Virus record (IMG/VR): IMGVR_UViG_3300044641_004856
Span: 1-64,000 of that record
DNA: 64,000 nucleotides
Strand: one strand, 5' to 3'
DNA from: a virus
Shown here: in pieces, positions 14,376 through 49,535 of the stretch
Layout: each line of letters begins with the position of its first letter
Position numbering within the stretch: the first letter of the stretch is position 1
Position numbers and translations under genes: made by a program
Notes under the pieces: model-generated
What the model was told of the DNA's origin: nothing
The model's input: the letters and a program-made list of their open reading frames with translations, nothing else
Databases searched by the model: none

Positions 14376-15431
14376 GTGGCAACAGCGTCTAACTTAGCCG
14401 AAATGGTTAGGTCCGAAATAGGAGACTCCTCTAAGTCTTTTGTTATGCAGTTTATTGCAGATGGTACAACAAATAGATTTGGTCTTCACTACTCTCCAGT
14501 AGATGCAGCAAGCCTGTACGTAAGATTTGATGATTCCAATGTTTCCAACGATGTTTCCGTAGAGGAAGCAACAGGAGTTTTAGTAACAGATGTGATTCCA
14601 CCAGATGGCACTGAAATCACAGTTGCTGGTAATTACTTTAGATACTTTACACCAGCAGAAATTAATCGCTTTGTAGAAAACGCTGTATTGCAGCATTCAA
14701 ATAATAGAACAGACTCTTTAGGAAGAATTCAAACTCTTGAAAATCTTCCTCCAGTAGAGGTTTATCCAGTATCTCTTCTTGCAAGCACACTTGCTCTTTA
14801 CACTTTAGCAACTGATGCTTCATTCGACATTAACGTCTTTGCTCCAGACGGTGTGACAATTCCACGTTCTGAGCGTTACCGTCAATTAATGGATATGATT
14901 CAAGCACGCAAAGACCAATACCGCGAACTATGTGTTCTGCTTGGTATCGGTATGTATCGTATTGAGGTATTTACATTCCGCAGAATTTCTAAGACAACAA
15001 ATCACTACGTACCAGTTTATCGACCACAGGAGGTGGATGATTACTCTTACCCAGAAAGAATCGAACTTGCCCGACCTACCTATGGCGACCAGCCCTCAGA
15101 ACGACCTTATGACTCTGTGGACCTTACTGCCTATCAAGATGTGGCGTTTACGTACTCTATTCCGTTCGTCGGAAGCCTCGTCACACGAGGAGTAGTAGCA
15201 AATATTCGTTGGAAAGCAGGAGTTTTACAAAGTCACATGCCGTTTACTGTGACAGTTACTACCTCTCCAACCGATAATACAAGCCATACGATTACTTTAA
15301 GTTTGACCAAGGACCAGACCAAAAGACTTGCACAGCGTATGTACTGGGACATCGAGTTAGTTAGTGATAACGGAACTCGAGAAACATACAAGGCTGGCAA
15401 ACTATTTACAGTGCGTGAGGTGACAACGTAA
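14376..15431 (+). CDS. virion protein, possible head-tail connector or fibre attachment protein
   Basis: 351 residues with a GTG start behind GGAGGAT. The N-terminal 180 residues are mixed alpha/beta ([39 protein letters not shown]), as seen in adaptor-like proteins. The last 130 residues form an Ig-like beta unit ([27 protein letters not shown]...). The stop overlaps the start of the collagen-like fibre gene (TAATG), so the two are coupled. A role in anchoring the fibre to the virion is possible but unproven. Confidence 0.5.
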
Positions 15432-17575
15432 TGCCTATTGACCCAAATAGCCCTCTCTATCCAGAGATTGACCCTGCACTTTTACCTGGAGTTCCTACAA
15501 CTCGAGGACCTCGTGGTTATCAAGGACCAACAGGACCAACAGGTCCACAAGGTCCTGCAGGTTCTGCTTCTGCAACTGGTGCAACTGGTGCAACAGGAGC
15601 AACTGGTGCGACAGGTGCAACAGGACCACAAGGTCCTACTGGTGCAGTTGGTCCACAAGGTTTAACTGGATTTACTGGTCCACAAGGTGCAACTGGTCCT
15701 ACTGGTGCTGACTCTCTTGTAACTGGTCCTACTGGTGCTGCAGGAGCAACAGGACCTACTGGTGCGATGGGTTCTACTGGTGCTACAGGTGCAATGGGTG
15801 CGACAGGACCAACAGGTCAACAAGGTATTCAAGGTCCACAAGGTATTCAAGGTGTAACTGGTCCGACTGGTGCATCTGGTGTTGCTGGTAATACAGGAGC
15901 AACTGGACCAACTGGTTCACAAGGTATTCAAGGACCAACAGGACCTACTGGTGCTACTGGTGCTGCTTCAACAGTAACTGGACCTACAGGTCCGACTGGT
16001 GCACAAGGTGCACTTGGTTTTACTGGACCTACAGGTTCTACTGGACCTACAGGACCAACAGGTGCTGCTTCAACAGTTACAGGACCTACAGGTAACACAG
16101 GACCTACAGGACCTACAGGACCTACTGGTGCACAAGGAACTGCTGTAACAATTAAGGGTGAGTATGCCGATGAAGCAACTTTACTTGCTGCTCGTCCTAC
16201 AGGAAATTTTGGCGATGCTTATTTAATCGCAAGTGGTGATTTGTATGTTTGGACTCCAAACTCAACTCCACCAAACTTTGGTACATGGAATAACGTTGGA
16301 AACATTCAAGGACCAACAGGACCTCGAGGTTTTACTGGACCAACTGGTGCTGAAGGTGCTGCTTCAACAGTAACTGGACCAACAGGTTCTACTGGTCCTA
16401 CAGGAGCCACTGGTGCTACTGGTGCTGCTTCAACCGTAACTGGTCCTACAGGTGCAACAGGTCCTACTGGTGCAACTGGTCCTACTGGTGCTACTGGTGC
16501 TGCTTCAACCGTAACTGGTCCTACAGGTTCTACTGGACCAACAGGAGCAACTGGTGCAGCCTCAACTGTTACTGGTCCAACAGGTGCTACTGGACCAACA
16601 GGTCCAACTGGAGCAACTGGTCAAGATGGTACATCTATTAACCTTAAGGGAACTGTTGCAGCAGTTGAGAATCTTCCTGCAACAGGAAATACAAATGGTG
16701 ATGCTTACCTTGTAACTGCAACAGGAAATATTTGGATTTGGTCAGGAAGTGCTTGGACAGATGGTGGACCATTCCGTGGTCCAACTGGTGCGACTGGACC
16801 TACTGGTCCAACTGGAGCCACTGGTGCTGCCTCTACTGTTACAGGACCGACTGGTGCTACAGGACCTACTGGTGCTACTGGACCAACAGGTGCACAAGGC
16901 CCAACAGGTGCACGTAACGGAACAACCTTTAAGATTACAAATAATGGTGCGGGAACACAATTTTTAGTTGAAGGTATTCCAGGAGACACACCAACACTTG
17001 ATGTTGTTCGTGGAGAAACTTACTACTTTGATTTAAGTGCTGTGCCTATTACAGACTCTTTCACAATTCGCTTTAACTTAACAGATACTGCAAACCCAAT
17101 TCCTGGAATGGTTGGAAACAACATTTCTACAGGAGCCTACGGTGGCAGTACTCCAAACATTATTACCTACACAGTTCCTCTTGATGCTCCAGCAAACTTA
17201 GTTTACCGAAGCGTTCAAGATGCAACTCAAGTTGGTGTCATTGCTATCTATGATAAGCGTGGTCCTACAGGACCTACTGGTCCACAGGGTGTAACTGGTC
17301 CTACGGGTGCAGCATCAACCGTTACGGGTCCTACGGGTCCTACAGGTCCTACTGGTCCTACTGGTCCTGTTGGTCAATTCACTGCCTCAGAAAGTGCTCC
17401 TACTGTTGAAAGTGCAGAAGCAGGTGATGCTTGGTTTAACACTCAAAATGCAAAAACTTACGTATTCTTTAATAATGCGTGGGTAGAGGTTGCTTCAGGA
17501 AACCTTGGTCCTACTGGTCCACAAGGACAGGCTGGTTCATTAGCACTATCTACAATGTGGTGGTTAGGAGCATGA
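15431..17575 (+). CDS. collagen-like fibre protein 1
   Basis: 714 residues. Five blocks of Gly-X-Y triplets, mostly GPT and GAT, alternate with globular modules: about 236-293 ([24 protein letters not shown]), about 399-450 (a related module, [22 protein letters not shown]), about 495-610 (a cupredoxin-like beta sandwich with no Cys, His or Met ligands) and about 648-690 ([20 protein letters not shown]). Collagen repeats form trimeric rods, so this is probably a flexible fibre that carries binding modules. Start overlaps the previous stop; the stop overlaps the next micro-gene. Confidence 0.85.
15506..17535 (+). repeat. Gly-X-Y collagen repeat tracts in fibre 1
   Basis: Triplet tracts lie at about 15506-16143, 16310-16628, 16778-16918, 17261-17370 and 17506-17535, broken by the globular modules. 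The nine-base theme GGTCCTACT/GGACCAACA recurs with synonymous changes, giving a DNA landscape prone to unequal recombination. Confidence 0.9.
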
Positions 17576-26511: not shown

Positions 26512-27990
<1,479 letters not shown>

Positions 27991-28012: not shown

Positions 28013-28591
28013 ATGACGGACTACCCAAACTGGTTTAAAGCAGGCGGAGCAGAAGCAAACTTTGAAAAGTTTCTCTCTTCTTATAAAGGCAAGCCTTTGT
28101 CATGCTTGCAAATTGGTGCGTATACAGGTGATGCTACTCAGTGGTTGTTCAGTAATGTGCTAACCCATGAAGAATCAACTCTTACTGATGTGGACACTTG
28201 GGAAGGCTCAGAAGAGCCAGACCATGCAGAGATGAACTGGCATAGCGTAGAAGAAACCTATGACTTAAGAACTCTGTGGCATCAAAATGATGAACGTCTT
28301 TATAAACGCAAAATGACTAGTGATGAGTTCTTTAGCAGGAATGTATCTTCTTTTGACTTCATCTACATTGATGGGGACCACAGGGCCATGTCAGTGCTTA
28401 AAGATAGTATGAACGCTTTGCTTTGTTTAAAACCTAACGGCATTTTGGCTTTTGACGATTATATGTGGTCTCTTGGTAAAGAGCCTTTCTATGACCCTAA
28501 ACCTGCAATTGACGCAATTCTTTCTTGCGTACCATCTCACGAATTCACGTTGTTAGAAAAGGGGCTACAAGTATGGATACAAAAAAACTAA
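28013..28591 (+). CDS. SAM-dependent methyltransferase
   Basis: 192 residues with the class I fold. Motif I is LQIGAYTGD (residues 32-40), the acidic end of strand 2 is TDVDTW (58-63), FIYIDGDHRAMSVLKD (116-131) is the motif typical of the Methyltransf_24 group, and LKPNGILAFDDY closes the core. It transfers methyl groups from S-adenosylmethionine; this group often acts on sugars or small hydroxylated molecules. It overlaps the glycosyltransferase gene by 19 bases, so the pair probably act on the same product. Sited right after a Thr-rich collagen fibre gene. Confidence 0.8.
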   Translation: MTDYPNWFKAGGAEANFEKFLSSYKGKPLSCLQIGAYTGDATQWLFSNVLTHEESTLTDVDTWEGSEEPDHAEMNWHSVEETYDLRTLWHQNDERLYKRKMTSDEFFSRNVSSFDFIYIDGDHRAMSVLKDSMNALLCLKPNGILAFDDYMWSLGKEPFYDPKPAIDAILSCVPSHEFTLLEKGLQVWIQKN

Positions 28592-29634
28592 AAATTGCTG
28601 TTTATGCAATTGCATTAAATGAAGAACAGTTTGTAGAGCGTTGGTATAACGCTGCTAAAGAAGCAGACTTCCTTCTGATTGCAGATACTGGTTCAACAGA
28701 TAAGACTATTGAAAAAGCCAGAGCATTAGGAATTAACGTTGTTGAGATTGCTATTGTTCCTTGGAGATTTGATGATGCACGAAATGCAGCCGTTGCTGCA
28801 ATTCCTAGAGACATGGACTATTGCATCGCACTAGATATGGACGAAGTTTTTGTGGCGGGATGGCGTGAAGAGTTAGAGAAAGTCCCTGAAGGGATTACTC
28901 GTCCACGTTATAAATACACATGGTCTTGGAATGCAGATGGTTCTGAAGGATTAACTTACAGTGGAGATAAGATTCATTCACGTAAGGGATACAGGTGGAC
29001 ACACCCTGTGCATGAAGTTATGCGAAATTACGGGATGGAAGAGACTCAATCATGGACTGGATTACAGATTCATCATTTCCCAGACAACACTAAGTCTAGA
29101 AGTCAATACTTCCCTTTGTTAGAAATGGCTGTAGCAGAAAGTCCAAACGATGACAGAAATGCACACTACCTAGGTAGAGAGTATTACTTCAATGGAATGT
29201 GCGACAAAGCAAAGGCAGAGTTACAACGACATCTTTCGTTGCCAAATGCTGTTTGGAAACCAGAACGTGCTGCATCAATGCGTTACATTGCTCGTTGTTC
29301 TGAAGGTGCTGAAAAAGAAGAGTGGCTAATGAAAGCACAAGAGGAATACCCTGAATCTAGAGAAGCCTTAGTTGAACTATCTGAGTATTACTACAGCATC
29401 AGTGATTGGCATGCTTGCCTTCGAATGGCAAAGAGAGCCTTAGACATAAAACAACGACCACTTGAATACTTAACAGACCCTAAAGCATGGGGTTACACAC
29501 CATACGATATGGCAGCAATTTCTTCTTATCACTTAGGTTTTAAAGAGGATGCCCTGACATTTGGACAAGAAGCACTTAACATAGAACCTAATGATGAACG
29601 TCTAAAACGTAATTTAGAGTTCTATTCTGCTTAG
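28573..29634 (+). CDS. family 2 glycosyltransferase with TPR-like tail
   Basis: 353 residues from the ATG at 28573, which has AAAAGGGG eight bases upstream; an in-frame ATG at 28525 lies deep inside the previous gene. The GT-A domain shows IALNEEQFVERW, ADTGSTDKT (37-45) and the metal-binding LDMDE (D88, D90). From about residue 195 the chain is a series of helical hairpins (NAHYLGREYYFNG, REALVELSEYYYSISDW, AISSYHLGFKEDALTFGQEAL) typical of tetratricopeptide repeats, which usually grip a protein substrate. It probably adds a sugar to a protein, maybe a virion fibre. Confidence 0.85.
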   Translation: MDTKKLKIAVYAIALNEEQFVERWYNAAKEADFLLIADTGSTDKTIEKARALGINVVEIAIVPWRFDDARNAAVAAIPRDMDYCIALDMDEVFVAGWREELEKVPEGITRPRYKYTWSWNADGSEGLTYSGDKIHSRKGYRWTHPVHEVMRNYGMEETQSWTGLQIHHFPDNTKSRSQYFPLLEMAVAESPNDDRNAHYLGREYYFNGMCDKAKAELQRHLSLPNAVWKPERAASMRYIARCSEGAEKEEWLMKAQEEYPESREALVELSEYYYSISDWHACLRMAKRALDIKQRPLEYLTDPKAWGYTPYDMAAISSYHLGFKEDALTFGQEALNIEPNDERLKRNLEFYSA

Positions 29635-36354: not shown

Positions 36355-39069
36355 ATGGCAGAATTAAACGATTCGTTAAAACAAACCGACGAATTGTTAT
36401 CCAGCATTGTCAAAAGTCTGACCTCTGCTGAGCAAATAACTAAACGCCTTGAAGGTTCTATGGGTGGAGTTGCTGGAAAAGCAAAGTCTGCTAAGGGTGG
36501 TGGTGACCGACATATCGGTACGGGTCAACATAGCCAAATGCCACACATGGACAAAGTAACTTTTAGTGGACAAGAAAAAGTTGATAGCACTGCAGAAATT
36601 GCTATGCGAGAGGGTATGGAGGCCACTAGATATGGCTTAACCCCTACTCGTGGTCAAAAATTATTGGGAGTTGGTCAAGGACTTGCACAAGCAACCTTTG
36701 GTATTGCTGCTGGAGCAATGGCTGCAATGCCAGGAGTTGCCGAAGTTGGTGCAAGTGCTGGTAACTATTACGGAGCATCTATTCGTTCTAATATGAGCCG
36801 TACTTCAATAATGAATGCCACTTTTGGTGGTTTAGCAGGTGGAGTTACGAGCACTCTTTCTTCTTCAAATATTGCAAGTATTGCTGCAGCAAGAGGCATT
36901 ATGCCAGGAAGTGCTCAATACAATGCTTTAGTTGCAGATGTTGGTGGTGCTGCACGGTATATGAACATGGCAAATGAAAACGCTATGGTTGCCATGTCTG
37001 GTTTTACTCAAGGAGACTTTTCCTCTCGTTTATACAACATTGGTGTTAGCACTTACGATTCAAAAACTGGTAAGGCTCGAGGCCAAGATGAAATTTTTGG
37101 TCAACTCTACGGTCGTCTCACTCAAGGTCAAGGAAAAATGAGTGTAGAAGAGACTATGAATAGTTTTCAAGCAGGTGGTTTTAACAAAGCAGTTACTGAT
37201 TTAGGAATGACAGAAGACCAAAGACAACTTTTTATGCAATATTCTGTTGATAGAGCAGCAGGAAAACCAACTGATTTATCTAAACTAGGGTACGGACAAA
37301 ATCCTCTAGCGGATAAAATGCGTATTACCGCATCTGATACATCGGTTTTAAATACGTACACCGAACCCGTATTAAAAGGACTTAAAGCAGCAGCCGATTT
37401 AATTGAGACCACAGTTAATCCTGCATTAGAAAAATTGGCTGGTACTGCAGGAGTGGCATCAGGATTTTTAGGTGGTATGGGTGAATCACGTGCAGGAATG
37501 GGCATGGGTATCGCTGGTGGTGGAATTGTTCAAGGATTGATGACTGCTGGTGGTGCTTTCTTAGGTGCTAAAGGTGCTCAAGGTCTTTTAGGCAAAGGCG
37601 GTTCTAGTGGGGTTAAAGCAGGAGGTTTTAAAGGTCTTTTAGGAAAAGCAGGACTTGCTGGATTAACCTACATGGGATTAGAGCAAGTACAAAAGTTTTT
37701 TAACAAAGCAGATGTTCCAGATGAAATGCGTTATATCGCAAACCTTTTATTTGACGCAGGTCAAGGTGGGTTGACTGGATTAGCAACAGGAAACCCTTAT
37801 GCAGCCCTTGCTGGTACAGTCGCAGGCACTGCTGGTGGTGTTGCAAACCCTTACGGTGGTAAAGGCGGTGGTACTCCAGGATTTGGTGCTGCTTTTGGTT
37901 CTAGTGGCGTAAATAGTGCAAACCCCTCTTCACCAATTACTAATGGTGGTGTAGGAACACCTTACGGTGCTACGGGAAGTTTATGGTCTGGGGGAAGTCA
38001 CACAGGTCAAGATTACCCATGTGCTGTTGGAACTCCTGTTCACGCATCATTAGGTGGAATGGTTATTAATACAAACCCTGGTTCAGATTACGGTAAAACT
38101 GTAGAAATTGACCACGGAAACGGTTATCAAACTTTGTACGGACATTTATCGGAAGTACTGGTCAAAGTTGGAGACACTGTTACGCAAGGACAGTTAATTG
38201 CAAAAAGTGGTGACACTGGAAAAGTTACAGGTCCTCACTTGCACTATGAAGTACGTAAAGGAAAAAATAACCCAGTAAATCCTGATGAATTAAGCAAAGC
38301 AGGAGGTTCTGGTTTAGCAGGAGTTCTGGGTGCAAGTGGCAATAATGGAACATCTACTAACGGGCAACAGTTATCGGCTATGGTTGGTTCTAAATCTTTA
38401 CAAGAATTACTAAGTGGGGGTATAGGAAATCTTCCTGCTGAACTTTTGGGTAGTGCTAGTAGTAGTAGTGCTACAAGTGGTGGAGCAAAGGTAATCCTTG
38501 GAACTGGTAGTGAAAAAGAATGGGCTACTGGTCTTCTTCAAAAAATGGGTGCTCCAGTCAGTGATGCTTCTATAAATGCTCTTACTACATGGATGCGTCA
38601 TGAAGGTGGACACTGGAAAAACTCTGCTCACTACAATCCTTTAAATACCACATTAGACATGAGTAACAATGAGTCTATGAATAGTGTGGGAGTAAAACGC
38701 TACAAATCTTGGGAAGAAGGATACGCAGCAACTATAGGAACGTTGACAGGAAAAAATGCTGGGGACCGTGGGTATACAGCAATTGTAGATGCTTTAAAGT
38801 CAGGTGCTTCGACAGATGCTATTTTAGCAGCAGTAAATAACTCAGCATGGATGACTGGTAAAACGGGAAAAAACCCTTATAAGTTCCAAGGTGGAGGCTC
38901 ACCTTCAGTTGCAACACTTAACTCTTCAGCAGGACTAAATATATCTCCGTCTATCACAATTAATGTAAGCGTTCAACAAGCATCTTACGCTGAGGCTATG
39001 AGTCTTGTTGAAATTGTTAAAACTCAACTTGAAAAAGAAAATTTACTTAGAATAGTAGGTGGGAAATAA
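36355..39069 (+). CDS. tape measure protein with M23 peptidase and lysozyme-like domains
   Basis: 904 residues after an AAGGAG site. The first 480 are helical and Gly/Ala-rich with hydrophobic stretches (GIAAGAMAAMPGVAEVG, GLLGKAGLAGLTYMG). Residues about 535-650 form an M23 endopeptidase with H549-x3-D553 and H628-x-H630 as zinc ligands and the fold motif YGKTVEIDHGNGYQTLYGHL. Residues about 715-845 form a lysozyme-like domain (TTWMRHEGGHW, Glu750 as likely acid; HYNPLNTT). It sets tail length and then digests peptidoglycan as the tube enters. The gene overlaps the next by one base. Confidence 0.85.
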   Translation: MAELNDSLKQTDELLSSIVKSLTSAEQITKRLEGSMGGVAGKAKSAKGGGDRHIGTGQHSQMPHMDKVTFSGQEKVDSTAEIAMREGMEATRYGLTPTRGQKLLGVGQGLAQATFGIAAGAMAAMPGVAEVGASAGNYYGASIRSNMSRTSIMNATFGGLAGGVTSTLSSSNIASIAAARGIMPGSAQYNALVADVGGAARYMNMANENAMVAMSGFTQGDFSSRLYNIGVSTYDSKTGKARGQDEIFGQLYGRLTQGQGKMSVEETMNSFQAGGFNKAVTDLGMTEDQRQLFMQYSVDRAAGKPTDLSKLGYGQNPLADKMRITASDTSVLNTYTEPVLKGLKAAADLIETTVNPALEKLAGTAGVASGFLGGMGESRAGMGMGIAGGGIVQGLMTAGGAFLGAKGAQGLLGKGGSSGVKAGGFKGLLGKAGLAGLTYMGLEQVQKFFNKADVPDEMRYIANLLFDAGQGGLTGLATGNPYAALAGTVAGTAGGVANPYGGKGGGTPGFGAAFGSSGVNSANPSSPITNGGVGTPYGATGSLWSGGSHTGQDYPCAVGTPVHASLGGMVINTNPGSDYGKTVEIDHGNGYQTLYGHLSEVLVKVGDTVTQGQLIAKSGDTGKVTGPHLHYEVRKGKNNPVNPDELSKAGGSGLAGVLGASGNNGTSTNGQQLSAMVGSKSLQELLSGGIGNLPAELLGSASSSSATSGGAKVILGTGSEKEWATGLLQKMGAPVSDASINALTTWMRHEGGHWKNSAHYNPLNTTLDMSNNESMNSVGVKRYKSWEEGYAATIGTLTGKNAGDRGYTAIVDALKSGASTDAILAAVNNSAWMTGKTGKNPYKFQGGGSPSVATLNSSAGLNISPSITINVSVQQASYAEAMSLVEIVKTQLEKENLLRIVGGK

Positions 39070-41920: not shown

Positions 41921-42325
41921 ATGTCGTATGAATCCGCAATAAGTTTTCCAATTCGCTTAGACAGTTATGGGAATCTTGCAACCACGGTTGACCCTAGTAA
42001 AATTTGGGCTGATAGAGTAACCTCTGTAATCGGTACTATGGTTGGTGAAAGAATCAATCGTCCAAATTTTGGAACACGTATTGCTCGTCAATGGATGAAT
42101 GGATTGAGCGGTATTCAAGGGGATATAGAGTCTGAAATTCAACAGGCGTTTATATCGTTTCTTCCTTTACTAAACTTGCTTGAAACTTCTTTTGAACACG
42201 ACGATGCAAATGGGTCTCTTAAAGTTATACTTACCTACGCACTACCAAACGATAAGGAAGAGTCTACTGTAATTGCTCTTGTCAGTATTGGCAATAAACA
42301 ACCTCAGTATCAGGAGAACATCTAA
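41921..42325 (+). CDS. baseplate wedge protein gp25-like
   Basis: 134 residues from the ATG at 41921, seven bases after GGAG; an earlier ATG at 41909 contains that site. FPIRLDSYGNLATTVDPSKIWADRVTSVIGTMVGERINRPNFGTRIARQWM contains the ERxNRPNFG core of gp25/GPW proteins, which nucleate sheath assembly at the baseplate. The stop TAA shares its A with the next ATG. Confidence 0.88.
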   Translation: MSYESAISFPIRLDSYGNLATTVDPSKIWADRVTSVIGTMVGERINRPNFGTRIARQWMNGLSGIQGDIESEIQQAFISFLPLLNLLETSFEHDDANGSLKVILTYALPNDKEESTVIALVSIGNKQPQYQENI

Positions 42326-43878
42326 TGGCAATTAATCAAATCCCAATAACAATTGACTATACAAGCAGGGACTATGAAGCCCTTCGTGAAGAATTAGTTG
42401 CTCGAATTAAGGAACGAATTCCTGAATGGAATGGTTCCGATAATGGTGACTTCGGCGTAGTTTTAGCAGAAGCATTTGCTTACATGGGAGATGTTGCAAA
42501 CTACTACATTGACCGAATTGCTAACGAGTCTTTTTTATCAACAGCAACTCAACGCGAAAGTATTTTAGCAATTGCGGAGACGTATGGTTACGTGCCTTCT
42601 GGGTATAAAAATGCTTCAGTCGATGTTGTTTTTTATAATAACTCTGCTTCTGCTGTAACTATTCCAGCAGAAACTCGTATAGATGGCGAAGTAATTGCAA
42701 ATGACACGGTAGAAACAGTCACTTTTACAACAACAGACAGCCTTATAGTTCCACCATTTTCTAATCAAGCACGAGGTGAAGCCACAGTTCTTGCGTATCA
42801 AGGAAAGTTAAATACTGTTGAAGCAAACGATGTTTATGGTGTTCTACTCGGAACCTCGGATGCAGAACCTTCTCAAACTTTTATTATTGATGACTTCCCA
42901 GTTGTAACTAATAGCGTTGAAATATACGTTCAGGGAGGAACTGCTTGGAAAAAATGGCAGAGAGTAACTCATTTAATTGATTTTAGTGCAAATGATGCAG
43001 TCTTTACTACGCGTTTAACACCAGATAATGAAGTAATCGTTCTTTTTGGAGATGGTATCTCTGGAGCAATTCCTACATACCAATCAGCAATTAGAGCAAA
43101 ATATGTTGTAGGTGGAGGAAATTCAGGGAATGTCCCAAGCGGTACTTTAATTAATATTGCCCGTGTTCCTGGTCTTTCACAAACACAGGTTTCTGCTTTA
43201 AACGGTGTAATAGACGTTAATAACGTAAATGCTGCTGTTGGAGGAAACGAGCCAGAAGATAATGAATCTATTCGTGCTGGTGCACCATTATTTTTACGCA
43301 CTCAAAACAGAGCAGTAACCCTCGATGATTTTCAAAATTTAGCCTTGTCTGTCGAAAATTGCGGTAAAGCAAAAGCAGTTGGAACATCTGCTACTGCTGT
43401 AACTTTGTATGTTGCTCCATACCGTGATTTTTCTGACTTTGATGCTACTCCTGGTATTGAAATAATCAGTAACGTACCAACTGCAACTCTTGAGTGGAAC
43501 CTGTTAAAAACAGACGTACAAAACTTTTTAGCAAATAAAATGCTTGTTGGAACAACTTTAAGTGTTGTTAAGCCTGTTTACGTTCCAGTAACAATGAACC
43601 TTCAATACACTCGAGAGCCAGAATTTAGCCAAACTGTTGTTGAAAAATCAATAAAAGCAGCAATCGTTGAAAACTACTCGTATAACTTTGTTGATTTTGG
43701 ACAAGAACTAACTATTCAAAATGTCGAATCTCTTCTTCAAACCGTTGAAGGTGTAAAATTTGCTAAATGTAGGTTTCTTTATAAAACAGGTGGAACCCCA
43801 AGTTTAGCAGCCATTTCTGCTTTACCGAATGAAATATTTACTTTTGCTGAACCAGATGTGGTGCTTGAGGTTCTTTAA
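42325..43878 (+). CDS. baseplate J-like protein
   Basis: 517 residues. The start IDYTSRDYEALREELVARIKERIPEWNGSDNGDFGVVLAEAFAYMGDVANYYIDRIANESFL is the conserved beginning of baseplate J/gp6-like wedge proteins. Further blocks are IPAETRIDGEV, FGDGISGAIPTYQSAIRAKYVVGGGNSGNVPSGT and AGAPLFLRTQNRAVTLDDFQNLA. It forms the ring of the baseplate and interacts with gp25 and tail protein I. Coupled to both neighbours. Confidence 0.92.
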   Translation: MAINQIPITIDYTSRDYEALREELVARIKERIPEWNGSDNGDFGVVLAEAFAYMGDVANYYIDRIANESFLSTATQRESILAIAETYGYVPSGYKNASVDVVFYNNSASAVTIPAETRIDGEVIANDTVETVTFTTTDSLIVPPFSNQARGEATVLAYQGKLNTVEANDVYGVLLGTSDAEPSQTFIIDDFPVVTNSVEIYVQGGTAWKKWQRVTHLIDFSANDAVFTTRLTPDNEVIVLFGDGISGAIPTYQSAIRAKYVVGGGNSGNVPSGTLINIARVPGLSQTQVSALNGVIDVNNVNAAVGGNEPEDNESIRAGAPLFLRTQNRAVTLDDFQNLALSVENCGKAKAVGTSATAVTLYVAPYRDFSDFDATPGIEIISNVPTATLEWNLLKTDVQNFLANKMLVGTTLSVVKPVYVPVTMNLQYTREPEFSQTVVEKSIKAAIVENYSYNFVDFGQELTIQNVESLLQTVEGVKFAKCRFLYKTGGTPSLAAISALPNEIFTFAEPDVVLEVL

Positions 43879-44348
43879 TGAATAACGAGTACACGGGAAC
43901 TTACCGAGGTGTCGTTACTAAAAATAAAGACACTGATGGTCACAGGCGAATTAAGTGTAAGGTTCCTCAATTATTTGGTGACGCAGAACTAAATTGGGCA
44001 TGGCCTTTAGAAACATCAAGCCTTAAAACACAAGTTCCAGATGTTGGTGAAGGTGTTTGGATTGCCTTTGAAGGTGGAGACCCAGGCTACCCAATTTGGA
44101 GTGGCAACTTTGGAAAACCAAAAAACGGTAAGCGAGTAAATGTTAAGGTCTTGTCAGACTCCGTTTCTTTAACTGGACTGACCCCTTATTTTAAAACCGA
44201 ACGTACTGCAAATGGGACTACAGAGATTGACCTTGTTGCTACCTTACTAGCCATGGCTGCTGCTTTAAAAGACCACGAAACACGCATTGCTACCTTAGAA
44301 ACTCAGATAACTCAGAAAGCAAACGTTAGCCACAGCCATCCTGCCTAG
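43878..44348 (+). CDS. baseplate spike protein with OB-fold (gpV/gp5-like)
   Basis: 156 residues. The N-terminal 85 residues are an OB-fold: YTGTYRGVVTKNKDTDGHRRIKCKVPQLFG, GEGVWIAFEGGDPGYPIWSGNFG, as in gp5 and VgrG central spikes. A short beta/coiled-coil segment follows, and the chain ends in SHSHPA. An HxH motif at the very tip binds iron in other central spikes. TAATG overlap with baseplate J. The spike is the first part to contact the membrane. Confidence 0.75.
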   Translation: MNNEYTGTYRGVVTKNKDTDGHRRIKCKVPQLFGDAELNWAWPLETSSLKTQVPDVGEGVWIAFEGGDPGYPIWSGNFGKPKNGKRVNVKVLSDSVSLTGLTPYFKTERTANGTTEIDLVATLLAMAAALKDHETRIATLETQITQKANVSHSHPA

Positions 44349-44424: not shown

Positions 44425-45093
44425 ATGCCCGCTTCGTATCCCGCAGGTGTCAAAGGTTTTACTACCAAGGTTGACTTTACCGACCTCGTATTAGCCGACC
44501 ACGTTAATGCTCTACAAGATGAAGTTCGTGCTCTACAAGCAACTATTGGCACAGACCCACAAGTAAGTAGTGGTTGGGTTGGAACTCTCGATAAAACAAC
44601 CCAAACTTGGGCAACGTTAAAAGCACGTATTGCAAATCTTGAGTACGGAGTAGTTAACGACTCACACACCCAGTACACACATAACACTGGTGGAGATACT
44701 ATTCAGGCTAATGGTGCAACCATTATTCCTCTTAAACTAAAAGGTTTTACTAGCCAAACAGCAGACTTACTAAGATTTGAAAACTCAGCAGGAACAACCT
44801 TAACTAAAGTTGATAAAGACGGAAAACTTTTCATTAACAATCAAGAAATCAAACCTGTTCTTCATCAACAGGCTCAACCAGATGGTGTGGCATTAGGATT
44901 ACCTCAAGGAACTCTTTGGGTAGATTCTGATTCAAACCCTGCAGTTTTATCTGTGGACACAACTATTCAAATTACTGGTGGAACCCTAACTGGTGACCAA
45001 GCATTGACTTCCCGCCTTCGTAATATCACCGTGTCTACTTCTGACCCAACTGGCGGAAATAACGGAGATATTTGGCTTAAGTACACTGTGTAG
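44425..45093 (+). CDS. tail fibre protein
   Basis: 222 residues behind AGGAG. YPAGVKGFTTKVDFTDLVLADHVNALQDEVRALQATIG is a fibre-base motif with a coiled coil, followed by beta strands with LPLKLKGFTSQTADLLRFENSAGTTLTKVDKDGKLFIN, a repeat unit common in trimeric fibres. The end SDPTGGNNGDIWLKYTV is a frequent fibre terminus. A short fibre or attachment protein. Confidence 0.65.
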   Translation: MPASYPAGVKGFTTKVDFTDLVLADHVNALQDEVRALQATIGTDPQVSSGWVGTLDKTTQTWATLKARIANLEYGVVNDSHTQYTHNTGGDTIQANGATIIPLKLKGFTSQTADLLRFENSAGTTLTKVDKDGKLFINNQEIKPVLHQQAQPDGVALGLPQGTLWVDSDSNPAVLSVDTTIQITGGTLTGDQALTSRLRNITVSTSDPTGGNNGDIWLKYTV

Positions 45094-45104
45094 GTCTAGG
45101 TACT

Positions 45105-46421
45105 ATGCCTATTCAGATTAAAGTCGCCAACAATTACGTTTCTTCAGGCTCTGCGTTTTTTAAAAGCGGTGGTGCTTGGATAAAGGCTAAAGAAGGTTAC
45201 GTAAAAGTTGAAGGCACTTGGCGTAAGTTTTTTGTGTCGGAGTTTAAAGACTTCTTTGAAAGAGCAAACGCTTCAACATTAGGCACTTCTCCTACTGGAC
45301 AAGCCTGGACAGTTGGTAGAGGCACTTGGAACATACTTGATGGTAAAGCACAAATTGCTACAGCAAAGTCAACATACCCAATTGCTTTAGTTGATGTTGG
45401 ACTAACAGATTTTGAACTACAGGCAAATGACATGGTTCCAGGAGTTGGCGTAATAATTAGGGCAGAGTCTTCTACTACTTGGTGGGGCTTAGTTGGTTGG
45501 AATAACCAAGTTGCTTACACATATTCTTTTTGCCCACAAGCACTCGTTAATCAAGGCTACTGCATTGTAGATAATATTTGCCAGCAAACAATTTGTCCTG
45601 GTGGGTATCAAACAGGGCAAAATTGTTCCCAAGGTCCTTGTTTAGTGCGTGAGCCAGACCAATTAGTTGGTATTGATTGTACGTATGCTTACTATCCAGG
45701 AACAACAACCTGTACTCCCGTCTCTACGCCACAAACAACTTGCCAAAACGTATGCATTAAAAACTGTACTAAAACAACTTGTACACCAGGAAAAACAACC
45801 TGTACCAACTACCCTAAATGGGGAAGACAGTGTTACACCAGTGAACCAACCTGTACCTCTTCCTCTTTCTGTTGTGATAGAGATACGGTATGCAGTACAA
45901 CAATTGTTATAACGCAATCTTGCACAACATCAGCAGGTAGTTATCGAGAAACGTGTGCTGGGTACTCTAGTCAGCAAGGAGCGTGTACCTCCTATGGTGC
46001 AGACGTTTGTACATCTTTTTCAACTTGTCCTGGTGGAACTACAACTCAAAACGTTGTCTGCGGTTACCCAGACTGTGCACAACTAGGTTCACGTCAAGTA
46101 TGCCCAGTTGCAGAACAAACGGCGACTGGATACAATTACTTCTATAAACTTTACCTAATTAAGTCTGTAAATGGCGTTATAACCGTAGAACAACAATTTG
46201 ATATTGGGGAAAACTTCAAGGCTCTTGGTGTGCTTGGAGTCGGTCCTAACTTAGCAGTAAACGTGTATAGAGATAACGCCTATAACGACCAGATTAAGGT
46301 GTTGAGTTACTCGTCGTTTACCTCCCCAGCAGGAAGTAACTTCGGTATATTTGGCTATCCTTCAAATTACCAAGAAGGTAATACAATTGGTTCAATACAA
46401 GTAAAGCAACCAGGAGCATAA
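45105..46421 (+). CDS. tail protein with 26-cysteine insert in a lectin-like domain
   Basis: 438 residues. The start (IQIKVANNYVSSGSAFFKSGGAWIKAKEGYVKVEGTWRKFF) is a fibre-attachment module. Residues 48-140 and 340-402 look like two halves of a jelly-roll/laminin-G-like domain (DFFERANASTLG, WTVGRGTWNILDGKAQIA, DFELQANDMVPGVGVIIRA... YNYFYKLYLIKSVNGVITV). Between them residues 143-333 contain 26 Cys and many Thr, Gln and Ser, with none elsewhere in the protein. Such density suggests a disulfide-stapled extension formed outside the cell. It probably binds the host surface. Confidence 0.65.
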   Translation: MPIQIKVANNYVSSGSAFFKSGGAWIKAKEGYVKVEGTWRKFFVSEFKDFFERANASTLGTSPTGQAWTVGRGTWNILDGKAQIATAKSTYPIALVDVGLTDFELQANDMVPGVGVIIRAESSTTWWGLVGWNNQVAYTYSFCPQALVNQGYCIVDNICQQTICPGGYQTGQNCSQGPCLVREPDQLVGIDCTYAYYPGTTTCTPVSTPQTTCQNVCIKNCTKTTCTPGKTTCTNYPKWGRQCYTSEPTCTSSSFCCDRDTVCSTTIVITQSCTTSAGSYRETCAGYSSQQGACTSYGADVCTSFSTCPGGTTTQNVVCGYPDCAQLGSRQVCPVAEQTATGYNYFYKLYLIKSVNGVITVEQQFDIGENFKALGVLGVGPNLAVNVYRDNAYNDQIKVLSYSSFTSPAGSNFGIFGYPSNYQEGNTIGSIQVKQPGA

Positions 46422-46422
46422 T

Positions 46423-46704
46423 ATGAGTGAAAAAAGTCCGTGGCAGTTATGGAAAGAAAAAAACCCAGGTGATGCTGTTCGTCCATGGGATTTACTAAAT
46501 CCTAATGTAAAGCGAGTCGACGATGAAACTCGGGATTACCGACTTAACCATTGTCTAGGATGCAAACATTTAATTAAAGCCACTAAAACATGTACTAAAT
46601 GTGGCTGTTTTATGACAGAAAAAACTAAATTAGCCCATGCTTCATGCCCCATTGGACTATGGGGTGCTGTTACTATAGAACCTACAAACACAGAAGGAGA
46701 ATAA
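46423..46704 (+). CDS. DUF6171-like zinc protein
   Basis: 93 residues beginning just after the previous stop. CLGCKHLIKATKTCTKCGCFMTEKTKLAHASCPIGLW has the six Cys and CPxGxW pattern of the DUF6171 family, a small zinc-binding group common in aquatic phages near fibre genes. Function unknown. The N-terminal 40 residues are charged. Confidence 0.7.
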   Translation: MSEKSPWQLWKEKNPGDAVRPWDLLNPNVKRVDDETRDYRLNHCLGCKHLIKATKTCTKCGCFMTEKTKLAHASCPIGLWGAVTIEPTNTEGE

Positions 46705-47342: not shown

Positions 47343-49535
47343 GTGGCAAAATATGCTGGTTCCATTTATCGTGGAGCGTATTATGGTAACTCTCCGCGTC
47401 TTGTTTACAATGTTACCCCCTTCCTTGCTTCTGCATTAACTTACGACAAAGTACAGTTATTTTGGCAATTACCTCAAGGAGATTTTTCTCAATTTAGGCT
47501 TGTTAGAAATAATACTAACTTTCCTGAAAGTGCTGAAGATGGAACAATCGTTTGGCAACAAGTTTCTGCCACAAATATCAGTGGTCAAGTATCTAGAAAC
47601 TCAATTATTGATGGTGAAGATAACGTTAGCGAAACTTATTACAAAGGCCTTATTCCTGGTCAATTTATTTACTATACCGTATTTCTTTACACTTCAACCA
47701 AGGTTTGGGTTGCTGCGGGTTCTACCTACGTCCTGATACCTAAAAAGTTAAGCAGCACAGACACTTTGTACAACATGCTTCCTAGAATCTTTACTACTAA
47801 AGACGGAAGTCCTACAGGACCAATGGAAAAAGATACTTTTCTGTATAATTTCTTAGATTCTTTTGGGTTTACTTACGACCAGATATTAACTTATGCCGAC
47901 TTAATTAAACCTTCTTTTGGAGAGTCTAAACTTCCCCCTCAATTTTTAGGGTATAAGTTTTTAAGTTATGGTCTTTATTTAGAACGAGGATTAGCCTTTA
48001 AAAACCAAAAAAAGTTAGTTCGTGAATCGGCTAGACTTTTTGCATTAAAAGGAACTGAACTAGGCATCAATAACTACATAGAGTCTTTAAGTGGCTATGC
48101 ACCTGTTTTAGTAAAATCTCCTAACCTACTTTTAGATATGCAAGATGCCACTTTTAAAAATGGTTTTGGTCGTTGGATTGCAACGGCAGGAACTTTAACT
48201 GCGGATAACACACAGACTTTAGCAACGGGAACCAACGCTATTGACACAGTTTGGTCTGGAAAAGTAGTAACCATTTTGCCAACAGTTACCTTTAAACAAA
48301 GGTTGAATGACGTGGCTCAGTTAACAACTAACGTAGCCCACGGTTTAGAAGTTGGTGATACCGTTACTGTTGCAGGTGTAGATGCTAACTACAACGGAAC
48401 CTTTACTGTTACAACAGTTCCAACACCAACAACTTTTACTTATGCAAGTGTCAACGCTCCAATGATTCCAACTGCTGCAACAGGAACTGCTGCTGGGGGA
48501 ACTGCTATCTCTCTAGGTCGAGATGCTCCTATTACTAAAGGAATTCCAGTTACACCTCAAACTGCTTATACGCTATCTTTTTATGCAAAAACTGTTGCCA
48601 ACGGAACTTTAACACCTGCTTTATACTGGTATGACGAACTAGGTAAAATAATTGGCTCTAGAGTTATGGGCACAGAACTCGGAACAATTGGTCAAGTTCA
48701 AAGAACAACTTTGGCTGCAACTTCACCAGCAGGTGCTGCTTATGCTGGAATTAGGATTTACTTAACCACTACAGGAACTTACTATATTGATATGGTTCAA
48801 TTAGGAAAAACCATAGACATAACTAATTACGACGAACCACGTAGTATTGATGTATTTTTAGAGCCAAGGAAAGTAAATTTAATTAGTAACCCGTCTTTTG
48901 AAACAAACGGCAATTTATGGACTACTAACTCTTCAAAAACCCTGGTTGCAGATGTTCCAACGGGTGTTCCAGGAGCACAGTCTCTTCGACTTAGTGGAAC
49001 AAACGCACTTTCTGTAACAACTACCTGTGCAACCTCTTCAACTTACACAATTTTTGATGACAATAACTATGTGTTTTCTATTTACCTAAAGGCAAGTGCC
49101 CCTTGCACTGTAAACATAACTTTAGGTGTTACTGATGAAACAGGGACAGATGCGGAAAGTGCTGTTCAAACTTGTAACTTAACCACTGATTGGCAAAGGT
49201 TTTACACTACTGTGTATATTCCAATTGACTTTTCACCCCAAAATACTATTACAATGACTGCAAGTGTTTCAGGAACATTGACAGGGCAAACAGTTACATT
49301 AGACAACGCTCAGGTAGAACGTGGTTACCAACCATCAGAATATTTTGACGGTTCTATGCCGTCCGATTACGGTGTTGTATGGTCAGGAACTGCCCATGCT
49401 TCAAGGTCATTCTACTATACAGACAAAAACATTAAAATCCCTAGACTTCTTATAAGCCTTCCAGATTGGATTCCACGGCATATTCCTTACCGTATCAGAA
49501 GTTACGCTGGTGTCGAAGGAAGTTACGCTCCATAG
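47343..49535 (+). CDS. tail protein I with carbohydrate-binding-like domains
   Basis: 730 residues, GTG start with AGGAGGT. A fibronectin-like domain (about 25-135) is followed by a gpI-type region (about 140-260: DTLYNMLPRIFTTKDG, FLYNFLDSFGFTYDQILTYADLI, LVRESARLFALKGTELGINNYIESLSG), which links fibres to the baseplate. Residues about 320-370 carry AHGLEVGDTVTVAGVDANYNGTFTVTTVPTPTTFTY, a unit shared with the adhesin at 17.6 kb. Two jelly-roll modules of the CBM4_9 kind follow (NPSFETNGNLWTTN...). A polysaccharide-binding role at the baseplate is likely. Confidence 0.75.
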   Translation: MAKYAGSIYRGAYYGNSPRLVYNVTPFLASALTYDKVQLFWQLPQGDFSQFRLVRNNTNFPESAEDGTIVWQQVSATNISGQVSRNSIIDGEDNVSETYYKGLIPGQFIYYTVFLYTSTKVWVAAGSTYVLIPKKLSSTDTLYNMLPRIFTTKDGSPTGPMEKDTFLYNFLDSFGFTYDQILTYADLIKPSFGESKLPPQFLGYKFLSYGLYLERGLAFKNQKKLVRESARLFALKGTELGINNYIESLSGYAPVLVKSPNLLLDMQDATFKNGFGRWIATAGTLTADNTQTLATGTNAIDTVWSGKVVTILPTVTFKQRLNDVAQLTTNVAHGLEVGDTVTVAGVDANYNGTFTVTTVPTPTTFTYASVNAPMIPTAATGTAAGGTAISLGRDAPITKGIPVTPQTAYTLSFYAKTVANGTLTPALYWYDELGKIIGSRVMGTELGTIGQVQRTTLAATSPAGAAYAGIRIYLTTTGTYYIDMVQLGKTIDITNYDEPRSIDVFLEPRKVNLISNPSFETNGNLWTTNSSKTLVADVPTGVPGAQSLRLSGTNALSVTTTCATSSTYTIFDDNNYVFSIYLKASAPCTVNITLGVTDETGTDAESAVQTCNLTTDWQRFYTTVYIPIDFSPQNTITMTASVSGTLTGQTVTLDNAQVERGYQPSEYFDGSMPSDYGVVWSGTAHASRSFYYTDKNIKIPRLLISLPDWIPRHIPYRIRSYAGVEGSYAP

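Follow-up and report, generated by a model that had tools for sequence, protein, structure and literature searches.

A predicted disulfide-zipped beta-hairpin arm in a putative baseplate appendage of a freshwater contractile-tailed phage

In the ultralong bovine CDR H3, a loop of a beta domain extends into a long two-stranded stalk bearing a Cys-rich variable end (PMC5994613, PMC8602281). This architecture is shared by the phage protein described here, in which a far-reaching two-stranded stalk is likewise predicted to spring from a beta-domain loop. The disulfides of the bovine loop lie in its knob, whereas those of the phage arm would be spread over the full length of the stalk, and in different phages the arm has 118-202 residues, against up to about 70 in the antibody; we claim no homology between the two. 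A second likeness is to the cystine-ladder peptides, which are secreted, stand-alone molecules of ~18 residues holding two or three disulfides. Those of the theta-defensin and gomesin class combine antiparallel strands with stacked disulfide cross-links as the phage arm would, but the arm is ten times longer and embedded in a tail protein. A third is to the long hairpin stems of lysenin and aerolysin, the top Foldseek matches to the model (E 2.6e-3, TM <= 0.14; VIA Z <= 3.4), where the likeness is in shape alone, with neither sequence resemblance nor any sign of a pore function. To our knowledge, the giant hairpins of such beta-pore-forming toxins have no disulfide ladder. Phage fibres, for their part, are usually regarded as trimeric assemblies built from beta-helices, coiled coils or collagen. 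The literature covered here, seen in part and including few subscription papers, describes no such arm for any phage tail.

The window, by which we mean the whole 64,000-base stretch analysed, corresponds to bases 1-64000 in the 92,874-base record of a freshwater phage and carries the genes of a contractile-tailed phage, including terminase, portal, major capsid, sheath (33224) and tube (34768). A 904-aa protein (36355-39069, + strand), carrying a metallo-endopeptidase/endolysin domain around residues 530-650, occupies the place of the tape measure. Further downstream lie a baseplate J/wedge protein (42325..43878, +; PF04865, E 2e-9; phrog_219, E 5e-50), a gpV-like baseplate spike OB protein (43878..44348, +; PF04717, E 4e-14) and a 222-aa fibre protein (44425..45093, +), whose C-terminal 25 residues match phrog_14064 (tail fiber) at E 3e-5. 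The arm gene (45105..46421, +) comes directly after the last of these and is part of the tail/baseplate module, downstream of the genes for the sheath, the tube, baseplate J and the gpV-like protein. Directly 3' of it, a 93-aa protein with Cys pairs (46423-46704, +) matches phrog_13558 at E 3e-15 and, weakly and below the cut-off, DUF6171 at E 1e-4; it is possibly zinc-ribbon-like. A further host-binding candidate is the 730-aa tail protein at 47343-49535 (+), which contains a carbohydrate-binding CBM_4_9 domain (E 1e-9). Collagen-like tail fibre proteins are encoded at 15431-17575 and 26512-27990 (+), the latter 63% identical in its C-terminal part to a fibre of Prochlorococcus phage P-SSM2. 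A beta-1,4-glycosyltransferase-like gene (28525-29634, +; phrog_13126, E 5e-116) closely follows a fibre gene.

Aligned from end to end, the major capsid protein shares 59-61% identity with those of Streptomyces phages LuckySocke, BRock and their kin, which are also the best-ranked matches of baseplate J (27-28% identical). As both proteins are nearest to those of Streptomyces phages, the host is likely to be an actinobacterium. LuckySocke resembles the window in tail gene order, but neither it nor BRock has the arm protein (tblastn).

The arm protein has 438 residues, and, as the preliminary description had noted, all of its 26 cysteines are confined to residues 143-333 (exactly 45531-46103). 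They stand at positions 143, 153, 159, 164, 174, 179, 192, 203, 213, 217, 221, 226, 233, 243, 250, 256, 257, 263, 273, 284, 294, 302, 308, 319, 324 and 333. Elsewhere in the window, 48 + strand ORFs together contain 73 Cys in 17,869 residues (0.41%), a background rate at which the probability of 26 or more in 438 residues is 9e-22. The arm is rich in Thr (15%) and Cys (12%) and poor in Lys (1%) and His (0.2%); as Phe, Leu, Trp and Met together make up 4%, there would be little other than the cysteines to hold it together.

On either side of the arm are residues 45-142 (45237..45530, +) and 334-438 (46104..46418, +), both conserved, the former across 18 aligned relatives. The flanks can be aligned throughout all 18 rows, the arm being the variable part. 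The earlier proposal that the stretch is inserted within a loop of a beta-rich domain is supported. The two flanks would form a single beta domain that presents the arm. That this domain is a lectin-like jelly-roll, as had also been suggested, could not be confirmed: the joined flanks gave no match to a curated Pfam family at the cut-off, to a PHROG or to a PDB sequence, and AlphaFold2 modelled them poorly (pLDDT mostly < 60). The N-terminal half looks like part of a jelly-roll by eye only, and the flanks may resemble concanavalin-like or LamG folds. Residues 1-44 (45105..45236, +; GGAWxKxxxGYVKVxGxW) constitute a probable docking adaptor, which, judging by its position and variation, may dock the protein at the baseplate region. 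It is the only part of the protein to match PHROGs (phrog_25859, E 4e-4; 5e-8 for the relative L103), and the same module recurs at the start or in the middle of two unrelated tail fibres (L180, L181) and in Rhizobium phage proteins. This short GGxWKK...GYVKVxGxW module may be a general docking tag of phage fibres.

Searches of IMG/VR with the window protein recovered 18 loci, one of them (L001) identical. A scan with baseplate J, from which the best 80 of its 349 relatives were used, revealed a wider set occupying the corresponding position in the gene order, and scans with family alignments enlarged it; flank HMMs defined 32 distinct relatives with both flanks, carrying 31 distinct arms. Among isolated phages, the window protein had no relative in phage records at E 1e-5, and relaxed searches of these records returned only the N-terminal adaptor, its surroundings, chance-level stretches or no match; by tblastn the arm protein was absent from all 50,697 phage records. 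The genome contigs searched held no host or prophage copy, and a search for arms on other protein scaffolds, with the DNA pattern of the conserved node described below (CIKxC-7-CCDRD), matched only four contigs, all of the arm family. Flank HMMs found no match among a further 36 loci (L109-L144), and in all seven of these that were inspected (L109, L119, L128, L133, L138, L140 and L142) the arm gene is missing, with the fibre gene leading directly into the downstream tail genes. The baseplate J proteins of these arm-less phages are 46-47% identical to that of the window. One distant relative, L227 (gene from about 595, +), carries in the same loop a very different 118-residue insert, whose 24 Cys stand in CxC and CxxC runs and which may represent another type of Cys-rich insert; the loop looks like a hot spot for such insertions.

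The distribution of the cysteines across the family points to their pairing. Their number is even in all 32 distinct proteins (range 16-32), a count that includes two N-terminally truncated proteins with whole arms (L005, L034) and omits partial sequences at contig ends (L017/L036, L018/L063/L078/L226, L094/L209, L099/L161/L203, L102/L152/L189, L178 and L179). The flank tree, built from 29 proteins without L034, L227 and L005, requires a minimum of 12 changes in this number. Within the group to which the window protein belongs, 13 arms, the partial L017 among them, have 14 variable Cys columns, and all six variable mirrored pairs show an identical pattern of presence across these arms: 159-319, 174-302, 189-287, 224-252, 226-250 and 229-248 in window numbering, with sums of 476-478. 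Shuffled patterns reached six matches in 16 of 200,000 trials with the 12 paired columns and in 1 of 200,000 with all 14, in tests that, like those of mirror symmetry below and including the choice of mirrored pairs, were designed post hoc once the pattern had been noticed. The two remaining columns reflect a single Cys that in L016 and L017 sits two residues away. Similar joint changes occur elsewhere: the mirrored pair 227 and 258 is present in L206/L207 and missing altogether from L096/L204, and in L090 a partnered pair, position 157 and one Cys of the vicinal CC, has disappeared jointly.

The invariant cysteines obey the same mirror, in which paired positions add up to ~476 (143-333, 153-324, 192-284, 203-273, 213-263 and 233-243), with 164-308 and 179-294 slightly off it and the spacing as a whole is imperfect (sums 472-478). 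Within a tolerance of 3-4 residues, all 13 pairs of the window protein nest about one centre, which none of 200 shuffles equalled at tolerance 4. In 29 of the 31 arms, the observed pairing was equalled by 0-2 of 60 shuffles; the symmetry of L090 is weak (9 of 60 equally good), and that of the L227 arm, which does not fit a hairpin, is not significant (15 of 60). The vicinal Cys 256-257, which lie opposite 217 and 221, cannot be part of a plain ladder. In L087 and L100, the counterparts of 221 and 257, rather than 256, have been lost jointly, which fits either crossed pairing or a rearrangement.

AlphaFold2 runs on the full-length protein and on residues 118-360 both returned mirrored strands, 154-163/313-321, 169-175/301-307, 179-182/294-297, 186-190/286-290, 193-197/279-283, 200-227/249-276 and 231-236/240-245, with strand ends adding up to 475-477 from one end of the arm to the other. 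In the second run, pLDDT is 82-93 in the middle of the arm; pTM was low in both (0.31 and 0.23), with shallow alignments of 11 and 13 rows. These models are not independent of the covariation, since both are built on sequences of the same family. Fold libraries gave a sole match under E 0.001, the uncultured Caudovirales phage protein A0A6J5KM36 (E 3.5e-5, TM 0.21-0.27), which was not among the best 50 matches of the arm-only model. Solved structures yielded only weak shape matches, VIA-align counting, among the folds that it lists, 25 chains at Z 2 or more and none of Z 5.

The covariation, the mirrored nesting and the modelled strands therefore lead us to read the insert as one giant antiparallel beta-hairpin, itself a prediction. 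It would protrude between two neighbouring strands of the beta domain, with an outgoing strand at residues 143-237 (45531..45815, +) and a returning strand at residues 238-333 (45816..46103, +), each of ~95 residues and with 13 Cys. An extended strand spans ~0.33 nm per residue, so that the fully extended hairpin would by arithmetic measure roughly 30 nm. Approximately 13 disulfides would link the strands: 143-333, 153-324, 159-319, 164-308, 174-302, 179-294, 192-284, 203-273, 213-263, 217/221 with 256/257, 226-250 and 233-243. We consider it probable that the arm is such a disulfide-zipped hairpin on a baseplate appendage of a contractile-tailed actinophage, with a swappable tip that likely touches a receptor, although disulfide formation, location in the virion and receptor binding are all inferred.

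The case for a binding end comes from the far part of the hairpin. The outgoing strand carries a conserved node, C-x-N-x-C-I-K-x-C (residues 213-221; 45741..45767, +), whose cysteines are invariant in the 13 arms and which recurs in L090, L093, L096, L156, L204 and L206. Opposite it, on the returning strand, is CCDRDTVC (residues 256-263; 45870..45893, +), 100% identical in the 11 members compared. In L090, L093, L106 and L156 the node is itself the tip, with a seven-residue closure, while in the window protein 34 residues lie beyond it (222-255; 45768..45869, +), forming a tip of the PKWGR type that is also found in L002 and L004. Tip types are discordant with the flank tree. A REDRITR tip is shared by L003, with flanks 92% and 90% identical to those of the window, and L016, with flanks 53% and 50% identical; the similar REDGITR tip is found in L096 and L206. 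The tips of L011 and L016 are 79% identical, although the mean flank identity of L016 to the group is 55% (N-terminal) and 49% (C-terminal); conversely, L011 and the window protein have tips 36% identical between flanks of 88-89%. Within a group of ten proteins with flank identity of at least 80%, tip identity falls to 18%. The flank tree, with poor support at several forks within the window's group, requires a minimum of five switches between tip types. The tip behaves as a swappable cassette, the pattern that an exchanged binding end would show. As to a diversity-generating retroelement, the record, which may be incomplete, has no PF00078 domain, and its 92.9 kb hold no second copy of the arm DNA.

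The arm proper, however, varies as well as the tip, and some relatives dispense with the gene. Both observations would suit a disulfide hairpin that acts as a protective or structural spacer, for instance by interlocking neighbouring fibres, and binds no receptor. We regard this as possible though rather unlikely, since tip cassettes common to proteins with distant flanks are what a binding end would be expected to show. Less probable still is a disulfide-rich chain of small Cys-rich modules with local disulfides in place of one hairpin. A brief internal similarity (C-PGG-x-C-x(4)-C; residues 164-179 and 308-324), a weak match to the tick inhibitor RaCI3 (E 0.13) and the L227 arm, with its many CxC/CxxC pairs and no mirror signal, would speak for such modules, but the covarying partners are far apart and mirrored rather than adjacent, and the models show long strands and no knots.

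The preliminary description had left open a disulfide-rich or a metal-binding arm, and of these only the former fared well. A string of zinc or iron-sulfur sites would accord with synthesis in the reducing cytoplasm, the general rule for phage tail proteins, and with the small Cys-bearing DUF6171-like protein encoded next door (46423-46704). Against it, the cysteines vary in twos and not in fours, with mirrored partners 19-160 residues apart, totals such as 18, 22 and 26 are indivisible by four, and His is nearly absent; the insert searched alone matched no Pfam or PHROG family. A zinc-binding Cys-rich domain was rejected on the same counts. The paired, mirrored gain and loss of cysteines, their even numbers and the low His content therefore favour disulfides, and metal binding appears very improbable to us. 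An assembly error or non-coding artefact has a negligible chance of being the explanation: the frame is uninterrupted and genuine, 31 distinct homologous arms from many contigs being open from end to end, and dN in the arm is well below dS (NG86-type counts) in five of six sequence pairs (0.28 against 1.00 for the window and L002), the sixth (L009/L012) being too similar to be informative.

Returning to the disulfide-zipped hairpin, we propose that the protein is a baseplate-attached tail appendage whose tip beyond the CCDRDTVC node is the part most likely to contact the host receptor. Phage tail proteins are assembled in the reducing cytoplasm, and profile searches of the record, with working controls, matched no thioredoxin, glutaredoxin or DsbA; for these reasons the bonds would probably form at or after lysis into oxygenated water, by way of host enzymes or oxygen. 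More speculatively, the arm might be a redox-armed, single-chain fibre, unzipped in the cell, stiffened into a ~30-nm ladder after lysis in lake water and competent to bind only once free, with tip cassettes exchanged like antibody loops.

Tail appendages as such are well known; what appears novel is a single-chain disulfide-zipped hairpin arm, for which the curated families searched offer no counterpart. If our reading is true, this fibre would be one folded-back chain held by 8-16 disulfide staples, a different solution to the building of fibres and a design unusual among virus parts made inside a reducing cell. It raises the question of where so many disulfides come from in a virus built in such a cytoplasm. 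The arm would also offer a natural scaffold of tunable length with an exchangeable tip, and it may act as a determinant of host specificity in freshwater actinophages, a group with few cultured members.
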